Shown here: positions 901 to 63,641 of the stretch, piece after piece | How positions within the stretch are numbered: the first letter of the stretch is position 1 | How the letters are laid out: each line of letters begins with the position of its first letter | Assembly: GCF_022024015.1 (NCBI RefSeq) | Contig: NZ_CP091786.1 | Coordinates: 3,596,001 to 3,660,000 of the forward strand | Length of the DNA: 64,000 nucleotides | Source of the DNA: Prevotella sp. E9-3 | GTDB lineage: Bacteria > Bacteroidota > Bacteroidia > Bacteroidales > Bacteroidaceae | Reading direction: 5' to 3' | Notes under the pieces: model-generated | Seen by the model: the letters and a program-made list of their open reading frames with translations, nothing else | Told to the model about the DNA's origin: nothing | The model's database searches: none | Position numbers and translations under genes: made by a program

Positions 901-2157
901 CTACTCCCCTAATATCTTCAAATATTTTTCGATGGCATCTTCCAGTTCACTCAGGCAGATAAACTCATCGGCGGAGTGGGAACGACTGCTCTGGCCGGGT
1001 CCCAGTTTCAGGGAGGGGAACGACATCAGGGCCTGATCGGACAGGGTGGGCGAACCGAAAGGCTGCATGCCCAACGACAGACAGCGCTGTACGATGGGAT
1101 GATCTTCAGCAATGGAAGAGGAATGCAGGCGGAAGGAACGAGCTTTCAGTTCGCAGTGTTTCATCTTACTGCACAGGAACTGATAGAGTTCTTCGTTCTG
1201 ATAGAACTCGTTGGGACGCACATCGAGAATGAAGTGGAGCGTGTCGGGCACCACATTGTGCTGGGTACCGGCTTCCACCACGGTGACGGTCATCTTGGTG
1301 GGGCCCAACAGTGGACTCACCTTCTCAAAACGATAGTCGCGCAGCCATACCAGGTCGTCGAGTGCCTCATAGATAGCGTTCACCCCTTCATTGCGCGCAG
1401 CATGTCCGCTCACACCGTGGGCATAGCCGTCTATCACCATCAGTCCTTTCTCGGCAATAGCAGGTTGCATTCCGGTGGGCTCGCCCACAATGGCCACGTC
1501 AATCTTCGGCAACAACGGAAGCACACGAACTATTCCATCCTTGCCCGACACCTCCTCCTCGCAAGAGGCGAGGAAAACGAGATTTACTAGTGGAGAGTGG
1601 AGAGTGGATAGTGTAGAGTTTGCTACCGCTGCATTATTTCCATTGAGACTATCACCGAATAATCCATTGAGGCTTTCCCGTGAACCGTCCTGCGGAGCGG
1701 TAGCAAACTCTGCACTCTCCACTCTCCACTCTCCACTACCTTCTGGAGCGGTAGCAAACTCTCCACTCTCCACTCTACACTCTACACTAGAATCTTCATT
1801 TATTAAGATTCTATAGGCCTGCAGCAGCGATACGAGTCCGCCGCCGCAGTCGTTAGAACCAAGTCCGTAGAGCTTGTCGCCTTCCCATGTAGGTTTGAAG
1901 GGATCGCGGGTCCAGGTGGCCACCGGTTTCACTGTGTCGATATGCGCATTGAGCAGGATTGTTTTGCGCTGAGGGTCGAAATCAGGGCTGATGGCCCACA
2001 CATTGTTTCCCTCACGCTTGGGGTTTAGTCCCCATTCTTCCATCTGCTTAAACAGCACATCGGCGGCAGCAGCCTCATCCCGACTCACACTCGGTGTGGC
2101 AATCAGTCGGCTCAGCAGTTCAGCACCTTCAAGAGCATATTTTCTTACGTCCATCAT
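901..2157 (-). CDS. M20-family deacylase (ArgE/DapE type) with an in-frame palindromic insert
   Basis: A cytosolic zinc peptidase-family amidohydrolase of 418 aa. The metal-site motifs are present: AHIDTVK (about 71-77), the bridging Asp in GSNDCGGG (about 100-107), the catalytic Glu pair in SCEEEVSG (about 198-205), GEPTG, and a late His in SHSADEF. HGVSGHAARNEG marks the lid domain. In Bacteroidetes the argE-position enzyme acts on acylated citrulline or ornithine, so a role in arginine synthesis is inferred; argH lies 29 kb away in the same window. Residues about 121-190, between two conserved segments, come from an inverted-repeat element (see 1587-1790), making this protein about 65 residues longer than expected. 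Two ATG codons stand at the start. The gene downstream in the same direction is far away, so it is probably monocistronic. Confidence 0.85.
   Translation of the reverse strand: MMDVRKYALEGAELLSRLIATPSVSRDEAAAADVLFKQMEEWGLNPKREGNNVWAISPDFDPQRKTILLNAHIDTVKPVATWTRDPFKPTWEGDKLYGLGSNDCGGGLVSLLQAYRILINEDSSVECRVESGEFATAPEGSGEWRVESAEFATAPQDGSRESLNGLFGDSLNGNNAAVANSTLSTLHSPLVNLVFLASCEEEVSGKDGIVRVLPLLPKIDVAIVGEPTGMQPAIAEKGLMVIDGYAHGVSGHAARNEGVNAIYEALDDLVWLRDYRFEKVSPLLGPTKMTVTVVEAGTQHNVVPDTLHFILDVRPNEFYQNEELYQFLCSKMKHCELKARSFRLHSSSIAEDHPIVQRCLSLGMQPFGSPTLSDQALMSFPSLKLGPGQSSRSHSADEFICLSELEDAIEKYLKILGE
1587..1790. repeat. In-frame inverted-repeat element with heptad arms inside the deacylase gene
   Basis: Two 44-bp arms (1587-1630 and 1747-1790) are near-perfect reverse complements. 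Each begins CTAG, runs through heptads of the GTGGAGA type and ends TTTGCTACCGCT. A third arm copy in the right-hand orientation is at 1696-1738. The core between them holds two imperfect copies of a CCATTGAG-starting segment of about 22 bp. The whole element is open in the frame of the host gene and lies between conserved enzyme blocks. Confidence 0.85.
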
Positions 2158-2189
2158 AGAAAGGAAATTATGTTTTCGCCAGATCGCTC

Positions 2190-3296
2190 CTAACCTATTA
2201 TATATTTACTTCCAGGAAGGAACGACAGCAGTTTTGTGGTCAGCGCACAACAAATAAAAGTGAGTATGGCTATCACGGGAATGGCCACCCCTACGGGAAG
2301 CATCGGCTCGGCAGCATTGCCATTGATGAGCCAGCCTGCGATGGGTGCCAGGAAGAACAGGTGCATCAGGTACATGCCAAACGAGAGTTTAGACAGTTCG
2401 GTGATGATGGCCGTGGGCCGTGAGATACAGCTGAACAGCAGGAACAGTCCAAAGGTGGCCAGTAACACGTTGATGGTACAGAACTCCCACGACCACTCCA
2501 GCATGGGGGTCTCTATCAACACACCGGGTTCTCCTTTCCACCAGAAGCTCCATGCCGTGAAGGCGGCCCCTGCCACGAAGGCGATAGAGCCTACGGTCAG
2601 TCGGCGGCTGTTGCTCCATTTCAGATGCACACGGATGTAGTGAGCCAATACCAAATAGCCTAAATAGCCTGAACAGTACCAGAAAGCGGAATACTGGTTC
2701 CAGAAACACTCACCCCACAGTTCGGGCGACACGAAGCGATGCAGCCAGGGCGTCAGCGTGGTAAAGGCGAAGATACCGATGAATACCAGTTCGTCCTTTG
2801 CCGAAGCCCGCTCCAACCATGGTGAAACCACGGGAATGATGAGATACAGCGAGATAAGGGGATACATGAACCACAGATGACCGGCCATAGAGGGAAAGTT
2901 GAAAGGCAGCATCTTCAAATCGGCTACCGACTGTTCCCAAGTCATAGCCCCCCAAGCCAGTGGCAGCAGTGAATAAAGAATCATGAAGCACACCATCGGC
3001 GGCAATATACGCATAAAACGGCGGCAATAGAACTGCGACATCGTCATTCCCTCCCTGACAGGAACCAACAGAAAGGCCGACACAATCATGAACAGGGGTA
3101 CGGCCACGCGCCCTAATGCGCCATCGTAGAAAGCCACCCAGAAACGGTTCTGCTCGTTGGCCAGCATCGACATATTACCGGCCAGGCCCGATGCATCGGC
3201 ACCATAGAAGTTCTCACTTGCATGCACCAGCATCACCAGGAAACATGCCACCACACGGATGTAGTCAAGAAAGGGTATTCGCTCTTTCATTGTCAT
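2190..3296 (-). CDS. Acyltransferase family 3 membrane protein
   Basis: A 368-aa integral membrane protein with about ten hydrophobic segments. The start reads RIPFLDYIRVVACFLVMLVHASENF; the conserved His after a first helix that begins with an Arg is the hallmark of the acyltransferase-3 (OafA/NodX) family, which moves acetyl or other acyl groups onto surface sugars. The central region has GHLWFMYPLISLYLIIP, the usual second signature (HLWF/Y). The product is inferred to modify LPS, capsule or another glycan. A second ATG two codons in (MKERIP) may be the real start. It follows the deacylase on the same strand with a 32-bp gap, but no functional link is clear. Confidence 0.83.
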   Translation of the reverse strand: MTMKERIPFLDYIRVVACFLVMLVHASENFYGADASGLAGNMSMLANEQNRFWVAFYDGALGRVAVPLFMIVSAFLLVPVREGMTMSQFYCRRFMRILPPMVCFMILYSLLPLAWGAMTWEQSVADLKMLPFNFPSMAGHLWFMYPLISLYLIIPVVSPWLERASAKDELVFIGIFAFTTLTPWLHRFVSPELWGECFWNQYSAFWYCSGYLGYLVLAHYIRVHLKWSNSRRLTVGSIAFVAGAAFTAWSFWWKGEPGVLIETPMLEWSWEFCTINVLLATFGLFLLFSCISRPTAIITELSKLSFGMYLMHLFFLAPIAGWLINGNAAEPMLPVGVAIPVIAILTFICCALTTKLLSFLPGSKYIIG

Positions 3297-7550: not shown

Positions 7551-7596
7551 CTCTCAGTTCTCACCTCTCAGTTCTCAGTTCTCACCTCACTTCACT
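7545..7596. repeat. Heptad array between dut and the TPR gene
   Basis: Read on the minus strand, seven consecutive 7-mers alternate GAACTGA and GAGGTGA. The array carries the stop codon of dut and the GTG start of the TPR gene. The same heptads form the arms of the element inside dgt (12852-13007). Confidence 0.85.
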
Positions 7597-12186: not shown

Positions 12187-13659
12187 ATGATGAACTGGAA
12201 CCAACTGATATCCAACTGCCGCTTAGGCCAGGAGCATCGCCATCTGGAGCGACACGATGTAAGAACAGAGTTCAAGCGCGACTACGACCGACTGATTTTC
12301 TCGGCCCCGTTCCGCCGTTTGCAGAACAAGACACAGGTATTCCCATTGCCTGGCAGTGTGTTTGTACACAACCGACTGACACACTCACTGGAGGTGGCCT
12401 CCGTAGGCATGTCGCTGGGCAATGATGTGTATCGGCAATTACTGAAGAAATATGGCGACGAACTGAGTCCGATGGTAGCCGAGATTGGTCAGATTGTGGC
12501 AACAGCCTGTCTGGCCCACGACATGGGCAATCCTCCCTTTGGACATAGTGGCGAAAAAGCCATTCAGACTTTCTTCACCGAGGGTAAAGGGGCCTATCTG
12601 AAAGAAAAAGTGTCGGAAGCCTTCTGGAACGATATCACCCGATTTGATGGTAATGCCAATGCTTTCCGCCTGCTCACCCATAGTTTCAAAGGTCGCCGAC
12701 AAGGCGGCTTTGCCATGACCTACAGCACACTGGCCAGCATCGTGAAATATCCCTACTCATCGGTTTTGGCAGGCAAGAAAAACAAGTTCGGCTTCTTTGC
12801 CACCGAAGCCGCCAATTTCCAATGCATAGCCAAAGAGCTTGGCATAATGCCAGTTGAGAGTTTAGAACTGAGAGGTGAGAGGTATGATTACTCTGCTAAT
12901 GAAAAGAACTCAAAAGAAAATATTGATCAACATAATGCTGCTCATGACAAGAGCTTGAATAGCAAAACTAATCATACCTCTCAGTTCTCAGTTCTCAACT
13001 CTCAGTTAAAATACTCCCGCTATCCCCTCGTTTACCTTGTAGAGGCAGCCGATGATATCTGCTATGAGATCATGGACCTGGAGGATGCCTTCAAACTGAA
13101 AATCCTCTCCTATCAGGAAACGGAACAGCTCATGCTTTCCTTCTTCAGCGAAACAAGCAAGGAGAATATCCTGAAGCGCTTCAAAGAAGAGGAACTAAGC
13201 GATACAAACGAAAAAGTACAATACCTGCGTGCCTGCGTCATCGGTCTGCTGGAAAACGAATGCGTAAACACCTTCATGCTTCACGAAGAGGAGATACTGG
13301 CCGGAACATTCAGCGGTTCGCTCATCGACCATATCAGCGAGGTGCCCCGCAAGGCCTACCAAGACTGTACCGTAGTGGCTCGTAATCGCATCTACCGCAG
13401 TCAGCCCGTTCTCGATGTGGAACTGTCCGGTTATCGCATCATGGCCACCCTGATGGAACTGATGGTAGAGGCCATAGAGCATCCCGAACGCTACTACTCC
13501 CAGCAACTCATCGGCCGTGTTAGCAGTCAGTACGACATCGCCCATCCCGACCTTGAAACACGCCTCATGGCCGTCATCGACTACATCTCTGGCATGACCG
13601 ACGTCTATGCCCTCGATGTCTATCAAAAAATCTGCGGCATCTCACTGCCTATCGTTTAG
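12187..13659 (+). CDS. dgt: dGTP triphosphohydrolase with an in-frame palindromic insert
   Basis: A 490-aa HD-domain enzyme that splits dGTP into deoxyguanosine and triphosphate. Metal-site motifs: RLTHSLEV (His), CLAHDMGNPPFGHSGE (the HD pair), and EAADDICYEIMDLEDA (late Asp). The N-terminus RTEFKRDYDRLIFSAPFRRLQNKTQV-type block is typical. Start 12187 (ATGATG) is chosen because the promoter lies between it and the earlier in-frame ATG. Residues about 222-274 are an insert with inverted-repeat DNA, placed between KELGIMP and the conserved YPLVYLVEAADD. A rod-like foldback follows the stop. It is divergent from the secreted operon. Confidence 0.92.
   Translation: MMNWNQLISNCRLGQEHRHLERHDVRTEFKRDYDRLIFSAPFRRLQNKTQVFPLPGSVFVHNRLTHSLEVASVGMSLGNDVYRQLLKKYGDELSPMVAEIGQIVATACLAHDMGNPPFGHSGEKAIQTFFTEGKGAYLKEKVSEAFWNDITRFDGNANAFRLLTHSFKGRRQGGFAMTYSTLASIVKYPYSSVLAGKKNKFGFFATEAANFQCIAKELGIMPVESLELRGERYDYSANEKNSKENIDQHNAAHDKSLNSKTNHTSQFSVLNSQLKYSRYPLVYLVEAADDICYEIMDLEDAFKLKILSYQETEQLMLSFFSETSKENILKRFKEEELSDTNEKVQYLRACVIGLLENECVNTFMLHEEEILAGTFSGSLIDHISEVPRKAYQDCTVVARNRIYRSQPVLDVELSGYRIMATLMELMVEAIEHPERYYSQQLIGRVSSQYDIAHPDLETRLMAVIDYISGMTDVYALDVYQKICGISLPIV
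12852..13007. repeat. In-frame inverted-repeat element with heptad arms inside dgt
   Basis: Arms of 39 bp at 12852-12890 and 12969-13007 are reverse complements with about five mismatches. Each runs in 7-bp steps (AGTTGAG, AACTGAG, AGGTGAG) and ends GGTATGATTA. The 78-bp core is AT-rich. The element keeps the dgt frame open and uses the same heptads as the array at 7545-7596. Confidence 0.85.
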
Positions 13660-35999: not shown

Positions 36000-36857
36000 A
36001 TGACATATAACGAACTTTGCCGCTTGCTCACATCATACTATGACGAAGGCGAGGCCAAGGCTGTGGCCCGTTACGTACTGGAAGTGGCTTTTGGACTGAC
36101 GATGACTGATGTGGTGTGCGGTGGCGTAGAAAAGTTATCGGCAGCGGATACTGAGCGGCTGAACGGATATATAGACAGACTGCTGAAAGGCGAACCCGTA
36201 CAGTATGTGTTGGGCGTGGCCGACTTCGGTCCCCGACAGTTTGGTGTAGGTCCAGGTGTTCTCATTCCCCGTCCCGAAACTTACGAACTGTGCCAATGGG
36301 CCGTTGAGTGTGTCAAAAAAAAAGACTATCCATCAGAAACAGGAGTAAACATCCTCGATATCGGTACAGGCAGTGGATGTATTGCCTGCACACTGGCGGC
36401 CGAACTGCCTAAAGCCCATGTTACGGCTTGGGACATCTCTCCCATCGCTCTCGGTATAGCCCGCGAAAATGCCAAACGCAATAGTGTGAAGGTGGATTTT
36501 CAGGCGCGAGACGTACTGAAGGTGCGCTATGGCAGCGATGCCGGCAAATGGAACGTCATTGTGAGCAATCCTCCCTATGTCCTCGACAGCGAAGCCGACG
36601 ACATGGCCGACCATGTGCTTGATTACGAACCGGAGATAGCACTCTTCGTGCCCGATGACGACCCGCTGCTGTTTTATCTCCACATCAGCAACTACGCTCA
36701 GTCGGCACTGGCCGAGGGCGGTCTGCTGCTTTTTGAAATCAACCCTCTTTTCGATGAGCATATCGAAGACATCCTGCTCGGACTGGGATTCGATGACATC
36801 ACCATTCGGCAAGACCAGTTCGGCCGTAACCGTTTCGTCAAGGCTCAATGGCACTGA
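36000..36857 (+). CDS. prmC: Release factor glutamine methyltransferase
   Basis: A 285-aa methyltransferase that methylates the Gln of the GGQ motif in release factors RF1 and RF2, which speeds peptide release. The N-terminal helical domain is followed by FGPRQFGVGPGVLIPRPETYEL, the SAM site ILDIGTGSGCIACTLA, and the catalytic VSNPPYV. RF2 (prfB) lies in the same window at 42.6 kb. The stop codon begins the purine heptad array that leads into recX. Confidence 0.94.
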   Translation: MTYNELCRLLTSYYDEGEAKAVARYVLEVAFGLTMTDVVCGGVEKLSAADTERLNGYIDRLLKGEPVQYVLGVADFGPRQFGVGPGVLIPRPETYELCQWAVECVKKKDYPSETGVNILDIGTGSGCIACTLAAELPKAHVTAWDISPIALGIARENAKRNSVKVDFQARDVLKVRYGSDAGKWNVIVSNPPYVLDSEADDMADHVLDYEPEIALFVPDDDPLLFYLHISNYAQSALAEGGLLLFEINPLFDEHIEDILLGLGFDDITIRQDQFGRNRFVKAQWH

Positions 36858-36940
36858 GAGGGAAGAGGGAAGATGGAAGAGGTAAGATGTAAGAAGGAAG
36901 AGTAAAAAGTAAAAAGGGAAAAATGAATAGGGAAATGAAC
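36856..36940. repeat. Purine heptad array between prmC and recX
   Basis: Twelve 7-mers in register, from GAGAGGG, AAGAGGG, AAGATGG to AAAAATG, AATAGGG and AAATGAA. The array fills the gap and runs into recX, where its ATG-containing units supply the possible starts at 36923 and 36935. Purine-rich units could act as ribosome-binding sites. Confidence 0.8.
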
Positions 36941-39712: not shown

Positions 39713-39783
39713 ACAATTGTCAATTATCAATTCTCAATTGTCAATTCTCAATTGTCAATTGTCAATTGTCAATTATCAATTAA
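39713..39783. repeat. CAATTNT heptad array between the two transporters
   Basis: Ten consecutive 7-mers CAATTGT, CAATTAT or CAATTCT fill the whole gap from the start codon of copy 1 to just before the stop of copy 2. Confidence 0.9.
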
Positions 39784-39789
39784 ATACTC

Positions 39790-59363: not shown

Positions 59364-60035
59364 ATGCCAAACCCTAACCCCGAAAAACCATATCAAGTCC
59401 TCAAGCGACAGAAACCTTGGCGCGATGCTTACTACTACCAGAAATCAGAAGTGATATACCAGATGACATACGTGTTTTGCCAGCGATTTCTACCCCCTCA
59501 CGGCGACCGAACTGTAGATCAGATGGTACAAGCCGCACGTTCGGGAAAACAAAATATTATTGAAGGAATTGAAGATGGCGAGACCTCTACTGAGATGCAT
59601 ATCAAACTGCTGAATGTTGCGCGCAGCTCATTACAAGAACTTCGTGAAGACTACCGTGACTATCTGCTTTCACGCAACCTGACAATCTGGACAAGCGGTT
59701 TTGAGAGATATGAGAAGATGCAGACCTTTTGCCGACAGCACAACAAGTTTGAGGATTATCAGCCCTTTCTCCCAAAATGGGATGAAGAGGAAATGGCAAA
59801 TATTGCGTTGACCCTTTGTTGCATGACAGATACGATGCTGAATCATCAGTTACAGAAGTTAGAGAAGGAATTTGTTGAGATGGGTGGAATTAAAGAACGA
59901 ATGCATGCCGCCCGCACCGGATACCGCCAGGCCCAAGACCAAGAACTGGCCGCCCTCCGACAGGAAGTACCAATGCTTCGAAAAGAAGTAGAACGCCTAA
60001 AAGCCCTATTAAGAATAAACAATATAGAGTTTTAG
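59364..60035 (+). CDS. Four-helix-bundle (S23/IVP, Avd-like) protein
   Basis: A 223-aa soluble protein. Residues about 25-150 look like the four-helix-bundle family known from 23S rRNA intervening sequences and from the Avd proteins of diversity-generating retroelements (SEVIYQMTYVFCQRF, QMVQAARSGKQNIIEG, EMHIKLLNVARSSLQELREDYRDYL). The C-terminal 75 residues add a Glu/Leu coiled coil (ELAALRQEVPMLRKEVERLKALL). Known relatives bind nucleic acids. No reverse transcriptase is near. It is bracketed by 9-bp arrays 3 and 4 in direct orientation. Role unknown. Confidence 0.78.
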   Translation: MPNPNPEKPYQVLKRQKPWRDAYYYQKSEVIYQMTYVFCQRFLPPHGDRTVDQMVQAARSGKQNIIEGIEDGETSTEMHIKLLNVARSSLQELREDYRDYLLSRNLTIWTSGFERYEKMQTFCRQHNKFEDYQPFLPKWDEEEMANIALTLCCMTDTMLNHQLQKLEKEFVEMGGIKERMHAARTGYRQAQDQELAALRQEVPMLRKEVERLKALLRINNIEF

Positions 60036-62688: not shown

Positions 62689-62738
62689 CGGACTCTCCCC
62701 CGACCAGAAAGACTCTCCCCCGGCCCCTCCTAGAGAAG

Positions 62739-63006
62739 ACTCTCCCCCGACCCCTCCCTGTGAGGGAGGGGAGTATATAGACCGACTATAAATATTCATG
62801 GCGAAGATTAAAAAACTCTTGAAGAGAAAGACTCCACGAATAAGAAAAAGACTCCACGAATAAGAGAAAGACTCCACGAATAAGAGATTGACTATAAATT
62901 TTCATGGCGAAGATTGATAATAGCATAAAAAAAACTCTTGAAGAAAAGGGTTCCGCAAATAAAACTATATACTCCCCTCCCTCACAGGGAGGGGTCGGGG
63001 GAGAGT
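62739..63006. repeat. Inverted-repeat element overlapping the O-methyltransferase start
   Basis: Arms of 41 bp (62739-62779 and 62966-63006) are perfect reverse complements, with CTCCCCCGACCCCTCCCTG and TGAGGGAGGGGAGTATATA parts. The 186-bp interior holds three 21-bp repeats (AAGACTCCACGAATAAG) and two copies of an ATGGCGAAGATT start segment, one at 62798 (a short dead frame) and one at 62904 (the gene start). Half arms lie at 62691 and 62711. Confidence 0.88.
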
Positions 63007-63641
63007 CCGTTTCTACGGGAGAGTCCTCTTACATAACTTCCCACATCTCCCCGGAGCCCGACTATCTCTACCGACTGTGGAGGGCCACGAATATCCACCT
63101 GCTGCACGGGCGAATGGCCAGCGGACATCTGCAAGGCCGACTGCTGAAAATGCTGGTTCAGATGGTGCGCCCGAAGAACATCCTTGAGGTGGGCACCTTC
63201 AGTGGCTATTCGGCCATCAGTATGGCAGAGGGACTGGAAGAGGGCGGAATGGTATATACCTTCGAGATCAACGACGAACAGGAGGATTTCACCCGCCCGT
63301 GGATAGAAGGCTCGGCCGTGGCCGACAAGATACGCTTCATCATCGGCGACGCCATCACCGAGGCCCCACGGTTAGGTATCACCTTCGACATGGCCTTCGT
63401 TGACGGCAACAAGCGCACCTATGTAGAAACCTACGAGATGGTACTCAGTGTGCTGCGCCCCGGCGGATTCATCCTGGCCGATAACACCCTGTGGGACGGG
63501 CACGTCATCGACCCAGCCTACGATCACGACCAACAGACCGTGGGCATCAGAGCCTTCAACGACATGGTGGCCAACGACCCGCGTGTAGAGAATGTGATAC
63601 TGCCCTTGCGCGACGGACTGACCATTATCAGAAAGAAATAG
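62904..63641 (+). CDS. Class I SAM-dependent O-methyltransferase (COMT type)
   Basis: A 245-aa enzyme. The core Rossmann fold starts near residue 50 with EPDYLYRLWRATNIHLLHGRM, then the SAM site ILEVGTFSGYSAISMAEGL, MAFVDGNKRTYVETYEMVL and GGFILADNTLWDGHV (metal-binding Asp and Asn). Homologues methylate catechol-type or other small hydroxy compounds with Mg2+. Residues about 1-45 come from a repeat element (KTIYSPPSQGGVGGES), so the native start has probably been replaced. The substrate is unknown. Confidence 0.88.
   Translation: MAKIDNSIKKTLEEKGSANKTIYSPPSQGGVGGESVSTGESSYITSHISPEPDYLYRLWRATNIHLLHGRMASGHLQGRLLKMLVQMVRPKNILEVGTFSGYSAISMAEGLEEGGMVYTFEINDEQEDFTRPWIEGSAVADKIRFIIGDAITEAPRLGITFDMAFVDGNKRTYVETYEMVLSVLRPGGFILADNTLWDGHVIDPAYDHDQQTVGIRAFNDMVANDPRVENVILPLRDGLTIIRKK

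Follow-up and report, generated by a model that had tools for sequence, protein, structure and literature searches.

An in-frame hairpin insert in a Prevotella dgt gene and its probable kinship with mobile elements that carry an IVP/S23 gene

The dgt gene and its insert

The window, meaning the whole stretch of 64,000 nucleotides of the Prevotella sp. E9-3 genome that was analysed, contains a dgt gene whose product matches the TIGR01353 dGTP triphosphohydrolase model at 1.8e-105 and is also matched by PF01966 and PF13286 (NCBIfam and Pfam profiles). Within this gene lies an inverted repeat of 156 bp (window 12852-13007), built of heptad arms around a 78-bp core and open in frame (Table 1). The inverted repeat pairs 12855-12890 with 12969-13004, 36 nt that are 92% complementary with 78 nt between the arms, and the arms can be widened to 39 nt each (12852-12890 and 12969-13007) with mismatches at 5 of the 39 positions. 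At one of these mismatches the codon containing position 12863 is TTA in dgt, where the sequence of the partner arm would give an in-frame TGA. The frame of the 489-aa ORF stays open across the whole insert, whose 156 bp span 53 residues of Dgt, 221-273.

An earlier sequence-only reading had described 39-bp arms in 7-bp steps and a 78-bp core, inserted in frame in dgt at about residues 222-274; the inverted-repeat and frame readings bear out this architecture, and the position found here is close. The sister insert with another arm flavour that it had placed in a deacylase gene was likewise recovered (Table 1).

Table 1. Features of dgt and of related repeats in the window
Feature	Position in window	Strand	Evidence
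dgt, dGTP triphosphohydrolase, 489 aa, with insert	12190..13659	+	ORF; TIGR01353, PF01966, PF13286; relatives
dgt 5' arm, purine-rich: heptads and inner end GAGGTATGATTA, type A	12852..12890	+	
Arm mismatch, T in place of the G expected from the partner arm	12863..12863	+	
dgt insert core, 78 bp, open in the dgt frame	12891..12968	+	
dgt 3' arm, pyrimidine-rich, complementary to the 5' arm at 34/39 positions	12969..13007	+	
ArgE/DapE-like deacylase ORF, 434 aa stop to stop, host of the sister insert	904..2205 (L161:825-2126)	-	TIGR01910 6.3e-31, below cut-off
Type B element in frame in the deacylase, inner end GAGTTTGCTACCGCT; 43-bp arms, 65-bp core	1588..1738	-	
Further type B arm, adjoining the element in the same deacylase ORF (compound insert)	1755..1795	-	
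Solo pyrimidine-rich type A heptad tract	7552..7590	.	

As RNA, the dgt insert is predicted to fold at -62.5 kcal/mol (z -7.56), a value equalled by none of 200 shuffles, with a stem of 35 pairs between the arms; the inverted repeat exceeds chance expectation. An intein reading of the insert was rejected, because neither NCBIfam nor Pfam profiles matched a protein-splicing (intein) domain in this Dgt and the insert spans 53 residues.

The loop in relatives of Dgt

The relatives of this Dgt are rumen Prevotella and their kin. The presence or absence of the insert, a comparison proposed in the sequence-only reading, was scored over 110 dgt loci including our own, with species partly repeated (some species occur in both L031-L060 and L061-L140, as in L033 and L061); 109 were readable by pattern and one, L140, was not. 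The loop has 29 residues at 86 loci, 25 at 13 and 26 at 2, so that 101 of 109 fall at 25-29; longer loops have 30 (1 locus), 31 (2), 34 (2) and 41 (1) residues, and the longest have 65 in genome G066 and 73 in our own. Rather than all relatives sharing a conserved insert, most are without it. A search of 398 genomes at a strict cut-off matched 34 genomes and supplied 17 further loci, among them that of G155 with a loop of 74 residues. Type B elements occupy this same loop in G066 and G155, and heptad tracts or remnants lie at it in G023, G121 and G129.

In a Dgt tree built without the loop (56 rows, several weak forks), the six carriers need 4 changes, and our own Dgt groups, with support, among 25 rows that include none of the other carriers. 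Given this placement apart, the type A insert in dgt is most simply an independent hit on a loop that has also been struck in other species. Alignment to solved Dgt structures breaks at the insert, query residues 221 and 272 meeting chain residues 231 and 237 of 3bg2, which fits a tolerant loop.

The empty-site search that had also been proposed gave a divided answer. Insert-less relatives were found: in 5 of 7 comparable loci 18 bp stand in place of the 150-bp repeat, so that the net gain at dgt is +132 bp, or 44 codons, and in the other two there are 33 and 54 bp. A clean target duplication was not visible in these 7 loci, where the flanks are about 69-81% identical, and no near-identical empty site was found for the insert, the nearest Dgt relatives being about 74-83% identical.

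A dispersed heptad family in the genome

Arm sequences of both flavours recur through the genome, with 81 matches to type A and 54 to type B, both strands counted. Among tracts of periods 4 to 24 in 464 kb of the genome, period 7 is the commonest with 22, followed by 22 (10 tracts), 9 (7) and 21 (7), and periods 4, 5, 6 and 8 have none. The 464 kb comprise the window and 400 kb sampled in 20 stretches, of which 19 were evenly spaced and the twentieth (L160), which holds 4 of the 22 period-7 tracts, was placed where arm matches lay. Used as a DNA query, an in-gene copy of type A matched 30 of 200 genomes of the genus, our own included.

The fetched loci of the genome contain 23 heptad inverted repeats: 1 carries a gene of the kind discussed below (IVP), 12 lie outside ORFs of at least 120 aa or only partly within them, and 10 lie in frame in 8 ORFs, a distribution over several unrelated ORFs that is shared with Rickettsia palindromic elements. 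Seven of the 23 are half inside an ORF, the IVP copy among them. The in-frame hosts are carA, the carA/carB junction, a FAD-dependent-dehydrogenase-like protein, fmt (between PF00551 and PF02911), a GH2 beta-galactosidase, a CCA tRNA nucleotidyltransferase with two elements, ispG/gcpE, the deacylase and dgt. All ten in-frame elements are stop-free and 1 of the 12 other IVP-less elements has any open frame, a comparison in which being inside an ORF partly means being open by definition. The encoded peptides are alike across genes, type A reading ...ELRGM.SS.NEKL..ESNHTSQFS.L.SQL, from which dgt departs in its longer core, and type B reading ...EFATAPQ...AAVANSTLSTLHSTL.

At the carA-carB joint (genome 83753-84701, L165), a type B element lies in a single ORF, cut by the end of the locus, in which TIGR01368 matches at 22-453 and TIGR01369 at 492-959. 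The two genes are also in a single frame in G116 and G155, with other linkers, and are apart in G066 and G045. The CCA orthologues viewed, from 5 of 10 species with a match (own, G066, G117, G105 and G016), either lack an insert at these two loops or have different ones there.

Several further repeats occur in the window. The solo type A tract of Table 1 has no partner arm by inverted-repeat scan, and neither have the heptad tracts at 36856-36896 (GGAAGAG type) and 39713-39788 (longer, CAATTGT/CAATTAT). A second kind of palindrome, a 43-bp C/G-rich inverted repeat (CTCCCCCGACCCCTCCCT...), is found at 62738-63007, with a similar one in L160 at 1260-1473; PQPLPVREG-like linkers at the CCA and carAB loops of relatives may derive from such a C/G-rich palindrome.

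That the inserts belong to a real class of element, as the sequence-only reading had argued from two genes, is upheld by the dispersed copies, the 10 in-frame elements in 8 ORFs, the absence of the insert from most Dgt relatives and an apparently independent insertion in the same loop elsewhere. The class extends beyond what that reading could see, as it includes copies that carry an IVP/S23 gene.

Association with IVP/S23 genes

The PF05635 family is that of the four-helix '23S rRNA intervening-sequence protein' (IVP/S23). Our own genome has an IVP element at genome 3538740-3539241, with type A 39-bp arms (arm sequence GAGGTATGGTTAG); its core, of 424 bp, codes for a PF05635/TIGR02436 protein (PF05635 1.9e-24). 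The genome has 6 PF05635 matches. Four exceed the cut-off, one of them by a narrow margin and within a longer frame, and the other 3 are strong; among these three genes, one has type A arms and none has type B. The second strong IVP has AATTATC-type heptads on both sides, running in the same direction, and the third lies inside an inverted GTTTAAGA(T) array. The window has a weak PF05635 match at 59433-59648 (5.2e-6, below cut-off), inside a 264-aa frame and with 9-bp ACTATAGGA-type repeats just upstream.

Arms and gene also occur together in other genomes. Type B arms flank the IVP of G066 (L271), and these arms match the inserts found in dgt of G066 and G155. A DNA search led in G110 to two type A arms that enclose an IVP (E 4.6e-26), in a genome already credited with 4 PF05635 matches before the arm-based search. 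Among the 110 dgt loci, 25 short-period inverted repeats were found, and one of these (L096), found without reference to IVP, encloses an IVP; the IVP check covered L061-L160, and two long-core inverted repeats from the same scan (L075 and L137) gave no IVP match. The arms of the dgt insert match those of IVP-carrying copies, as type A, and the same holds for type B; it is because its arms match that the dgt insert is counted in this family. Since its core has only 78 bp, without an IVP gene, it can be no more than a non-autonomous copy of such an element.

Repeats of the same period on both sides of the IVP gene were found at 59 of 78 Bacteroidota loci (39/48 in the genus, 20/30 elsewhere in the phylum). 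Among controls, all of them Prevotella loci, the same was seen at 4 of 300 random positions and around 14 of 626 gene-like ORFs, a set in which the 133 ORFs of similar size account for 3. With the threshold one point lower the counts are 67/78 and 69/626, and at an inverted-repeat score of at least 14 they are 37/78 and 8/626. The IVP loci were the best-scoring or were chosen by hand among the matches listed, and so are not a random draw; L201, L203, L205 and L219 (cut by contig ends) and L279 (two IVPs) were excluded from the counts and the tree. The arms run the same way, rather than inverted, in L189, L333 and L341. Full copies (arm, IVP, arm) sit in intergenic gaps, and IVP-less, stop-free copies sit in frame in housekeeping genes, at loops or linkers.

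The repeat period is 7 at 30 loci, 8 at 21, 9 at 3, 10 at 4 and 12 at 1; the 19 loci below threshold carry no period label. On the IVP tree (59 rows, with few columns and many unresolved forks) the period needs 11 changes, compared with a mean of 23.9 and a minimum of 19 among shuffles (0/500), and on a genus-only tree 10 changes, compared with a mean of 17.4 and a minimum of 12 (0/500). Mere co-inheritance of arm and gene would yield the same agreement of period and tree as recognition would.

In G117, two IVP elements with identical IVP (L284 and L285) lie inside transposase-like gene remnants, which we take, by motif, to resemble a REP-type transposase gene, and were copied together. These near-identical copies are uninformative on junctions, the copied unit being longer and including the pieces of the transposase-like gene. 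A tblastn search of a phage collection with one IVP query gave no match at 1e-5.

Plasmid loci and empty sites

IVP was found by tblastn on 27 plasmid records, mostly cyanobacterial, of which 13 were examined (12 from cyanobacteria and 1 from Gemmatirosa). In an uncontrolled count, twelve of the 13 loci pass the Bacteroidota threshold on both sides, with scores of 13 and 16 at L340; the period is 7 in 11 loci and 8 in 2, and inspection by eye shows inverted arms in 11 and arms of one direction in L333 and L341. Some of the elements lie inside CRISPR-cas gene runs of cyanobacterial plasmids, at cas6/cas4 and cas10/cmr3 (L331, L333 and L336).

A near-identical empty site is provided by plasmid C of T. 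variabilis compared with N. linckia, where the flanks are 98.8 and 98.5% identical and 420 bp are inserted, from repeat arm to repeat arm, and the two sides overlap by 8 bp on the empty site (copy on the right GTAATTAA, on the left GTAATAAA). In this one good case, on a cyanobacterial plasmid, arms and IVP gene insert as one unit. Further empty sites on plasmids, with flanks about 82-97% identical, have mixed junctions: L342 shows 5 bp against L350 and a loss of 7 bp against L349 and L351, L355 shows 3 bp against L351 and a loss of 7 or 13 against others, and 36-42 bp are lost at L339 and 11 bp at L337. Since the junctions vary between sites and comparators, no insertion chemistry can be named. 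L356 has a truncated IVP and a left arm only, and the site that is occupied by an IVP element in L339 holds heptad arms but no IVP in L348.

Origin of the dgt insert

We consider the dgt insert, with a probability of about 0.78, to be a non-autonomous, translated member of a mobile hairpin-element family whose full form carries IVP. The hairpin would be an element of the IVS/IVP type with in-frame copies like those of the Rickettsia palindromic elements; the class itself is real. The full element would consist of a short-period repeat arm, a gene for the IVP/S23 four-helix bundle and a second, usually complementary repeat arm. IVP may recognise the arms, whether in DNA or in hairpin form in RNA, and aid the spread of the element, and it may act in trans on IVP-less copies, thereby spreading them too; the copies that survive inside genes would be those in frame and stop-free. 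The ribosome would read across the hairpin in dgt to give a Dgt whose loop is extended by about 44 residues, a reading supported by the open frame and by the single mismatch between the arms through which a stop in frame is avoided. Dgt is probably made with the loop, and it would tolerate the loop and stay active.

An unlikely, if serious, alternative is a family resembling MITEs or Rickettsia palindromic elements that is moved by an ordinary transposase in trans, with IVP as a passenger of some copies. Terminal inverted repeats, dispersed short copies and in-frame copies in ORFs would all be expected of it, and two of the overlaps, of 8 bp at one empty site and of 5 bp in one comparison elsewhere, resemble target duplications. 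The overlap lengths, however, are not constant, and both on cyanobacterial plasmids and throughout a phylum each IVP gene comes with its own arms, whose period tracks the IVP tree, as would not be expected of a chance passenger.

Slippage of the polymerase is reported in PMC4679880 and PMC4692102 as a proposed origin of heptad repeats. A reading by slippage without any mobile element, with heptads growing at tolerant loops and template switching yielding the second arm, would accommodate the varying repeat unit and number and the dgt loops of G121 and G129, which have heptads and no full hairpin, but it is quite improbable here, as inner ends and peptides are common to copies at unrelated loci and the 420-bp insertion at the empty site ends in arms. 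A shade less probable again is an RNA-level intervening sequence, in which RNase III would cut the hairpin from the dgt mRNA and the insert would be absent from the protein. The 35 predicted pairs between the arms and the z of -7.56 would suit such a substrate, and RNase III does excise IVSs (PMC4990558), but excision leaves the fragments unligated according to the same source and would thus split an ORF, and the ten of ten open copies in ORFs and the mismatch that avoids TGA point to translation. It is barely credible that the insert is an old functional Dgt loop or an assembly artefact: large inserts do occupy this loop in three species (own, G066 and G155), but the loop has 25-29 residues in 101 of the 109 Dgt loci read, a set with some repetition of species, the type of arm is not the same from species to species, 4 changes are required on the tree, the assembly is a single contig of 3.73 Mb and such inserts occur in other genomes. 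On the shared inner ends, the empty site, the loops of relatives and the other genomes, all three readings (slippage by itself, an old loop, an assembly artefact) were accordingly rejected.

Returning to the IVP-element reading, a wider version of it, to which we give even odds, is that IVP/S23 genes and paired arrays of 7-10-bp repeats form one unrecognised mobile class in Bacteroidota, cyanobacteria and beyond. IVP would read or build the repeats, and IVP-less copies would spread in trans, some of them stop-free inside essential proteins and one even joining carA to carB; many heptad repeats (STRRs, the GGGAATC repeats of Xanthomonas, TAACTGA) would be arms or remains of such elements. Selfish DNA would thereby add peptide loops to housekeeping enzymes and join carA and carB in one ORF. 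The proposal ties together three loose ends, namely the role of S23/IVP outside rRNA, the spread of intervening-sequence elements and the origin of dispersed heptad repeats.

Comparison with known systems

The intervening sequences (IVSs) of 23S rRNA are bounded by complementary sequences and some carry an S23/IVP gene, in Coxiella, Leptospira and others; they are sporadic in distribution and have been called selfish or parasitic elements in rRNA, and the S23p of X. campestris is a pentamer of four-helix bundles (PMC4990558). That structure is presumably PDB 2gsc. The present elements share with IVSs the complementary bounding sequences, a PF05635-type gene in some copies, the sporadic distribution and a putatively selfish character. 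Unlike IVSs, they lie outside rRNA, between genes and in ORFs, and their arms are arrays of 7-10-bp repeats. All 4 of our own 23S genes are full-length (model 1-2925, 2901 bp each), so none houses such an element.

Rickettsia palindromic elements are short palindromic repeats found in frame in many unrelated ORFs. By this general description the elements in Prevotella are alike in being short palindromes in frame in unrelated ORFs, and differ in their tandem heptad arms, their IVP-carrying relatives and their phylum. With MITEs they share small size, non-autonomy and terminal inverted repeats, which the dgt insert has, whereas parent-like copies carry IVP and no constant target duplication was seen: none is visible at dgt (flanks 69-81%), and the cyanobacterial sites give 8 bp, 5 or -7, 3 (or -7, -13), and 11 to 42 lost. 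No transposase-bearing parent with the same ends was found among the 23 elements of our own genome, whose arms are at most about 600 bp apart.

A likeness to the Avd protein of DGRs is seen in the IVP of L213, which matches NF033474 (Avd) at 6.4e-8 and 32.8 bits, below the cut-off of 80, whereas our own IVP (L190) has no Avd match. A reverse transcriptase acting in trans, considered because of the Avd-like IVP, is not proposed, as our own genome has just one weak RVT_1 match. This match (1e-8) lies at genome 2601883-2602449 (L357) in a long open frame.

Dispersed heptad repeats make up the last of the systems compared. TAACTGA repeats have been described from Beggiatoaceae, cyanobacteria and five Bacteroidetes (PMC4679880), and GGGAATC/GGGGA(C/T)T repeats from Xanthomonas and Nostoc, two Xanthomonas genomes having 70 and 75 pairs of convergent heptads; the latter repeats are 'generally' unassociated with mobile elements (PMC4692102), and the 7-bp STRRs of Nostoc may form hairpins (PMC2670836, PMC2408588). 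In the portions of these four sources that were available their origin is left open, and neither S23 nor four helix is named in the available main text of PMC4692102. Among titles and abstracts, with full texts in part, no report was found that links IVP/S23 with heptad repeats. That known heptad repeats are arms of IVP elements is a proposal of the present analysis, examined at the 13 plasmid IVP loci. The two groups are alike in their heptad arrays, in Xanthomonas as convergent pairs, and IVP genes are known from both cyanobacteria and Xanthomonas (PDB 2gsc); the arms that flank IVP genes suggest a source for some of the unexplained 7-base repeats of bacteria.
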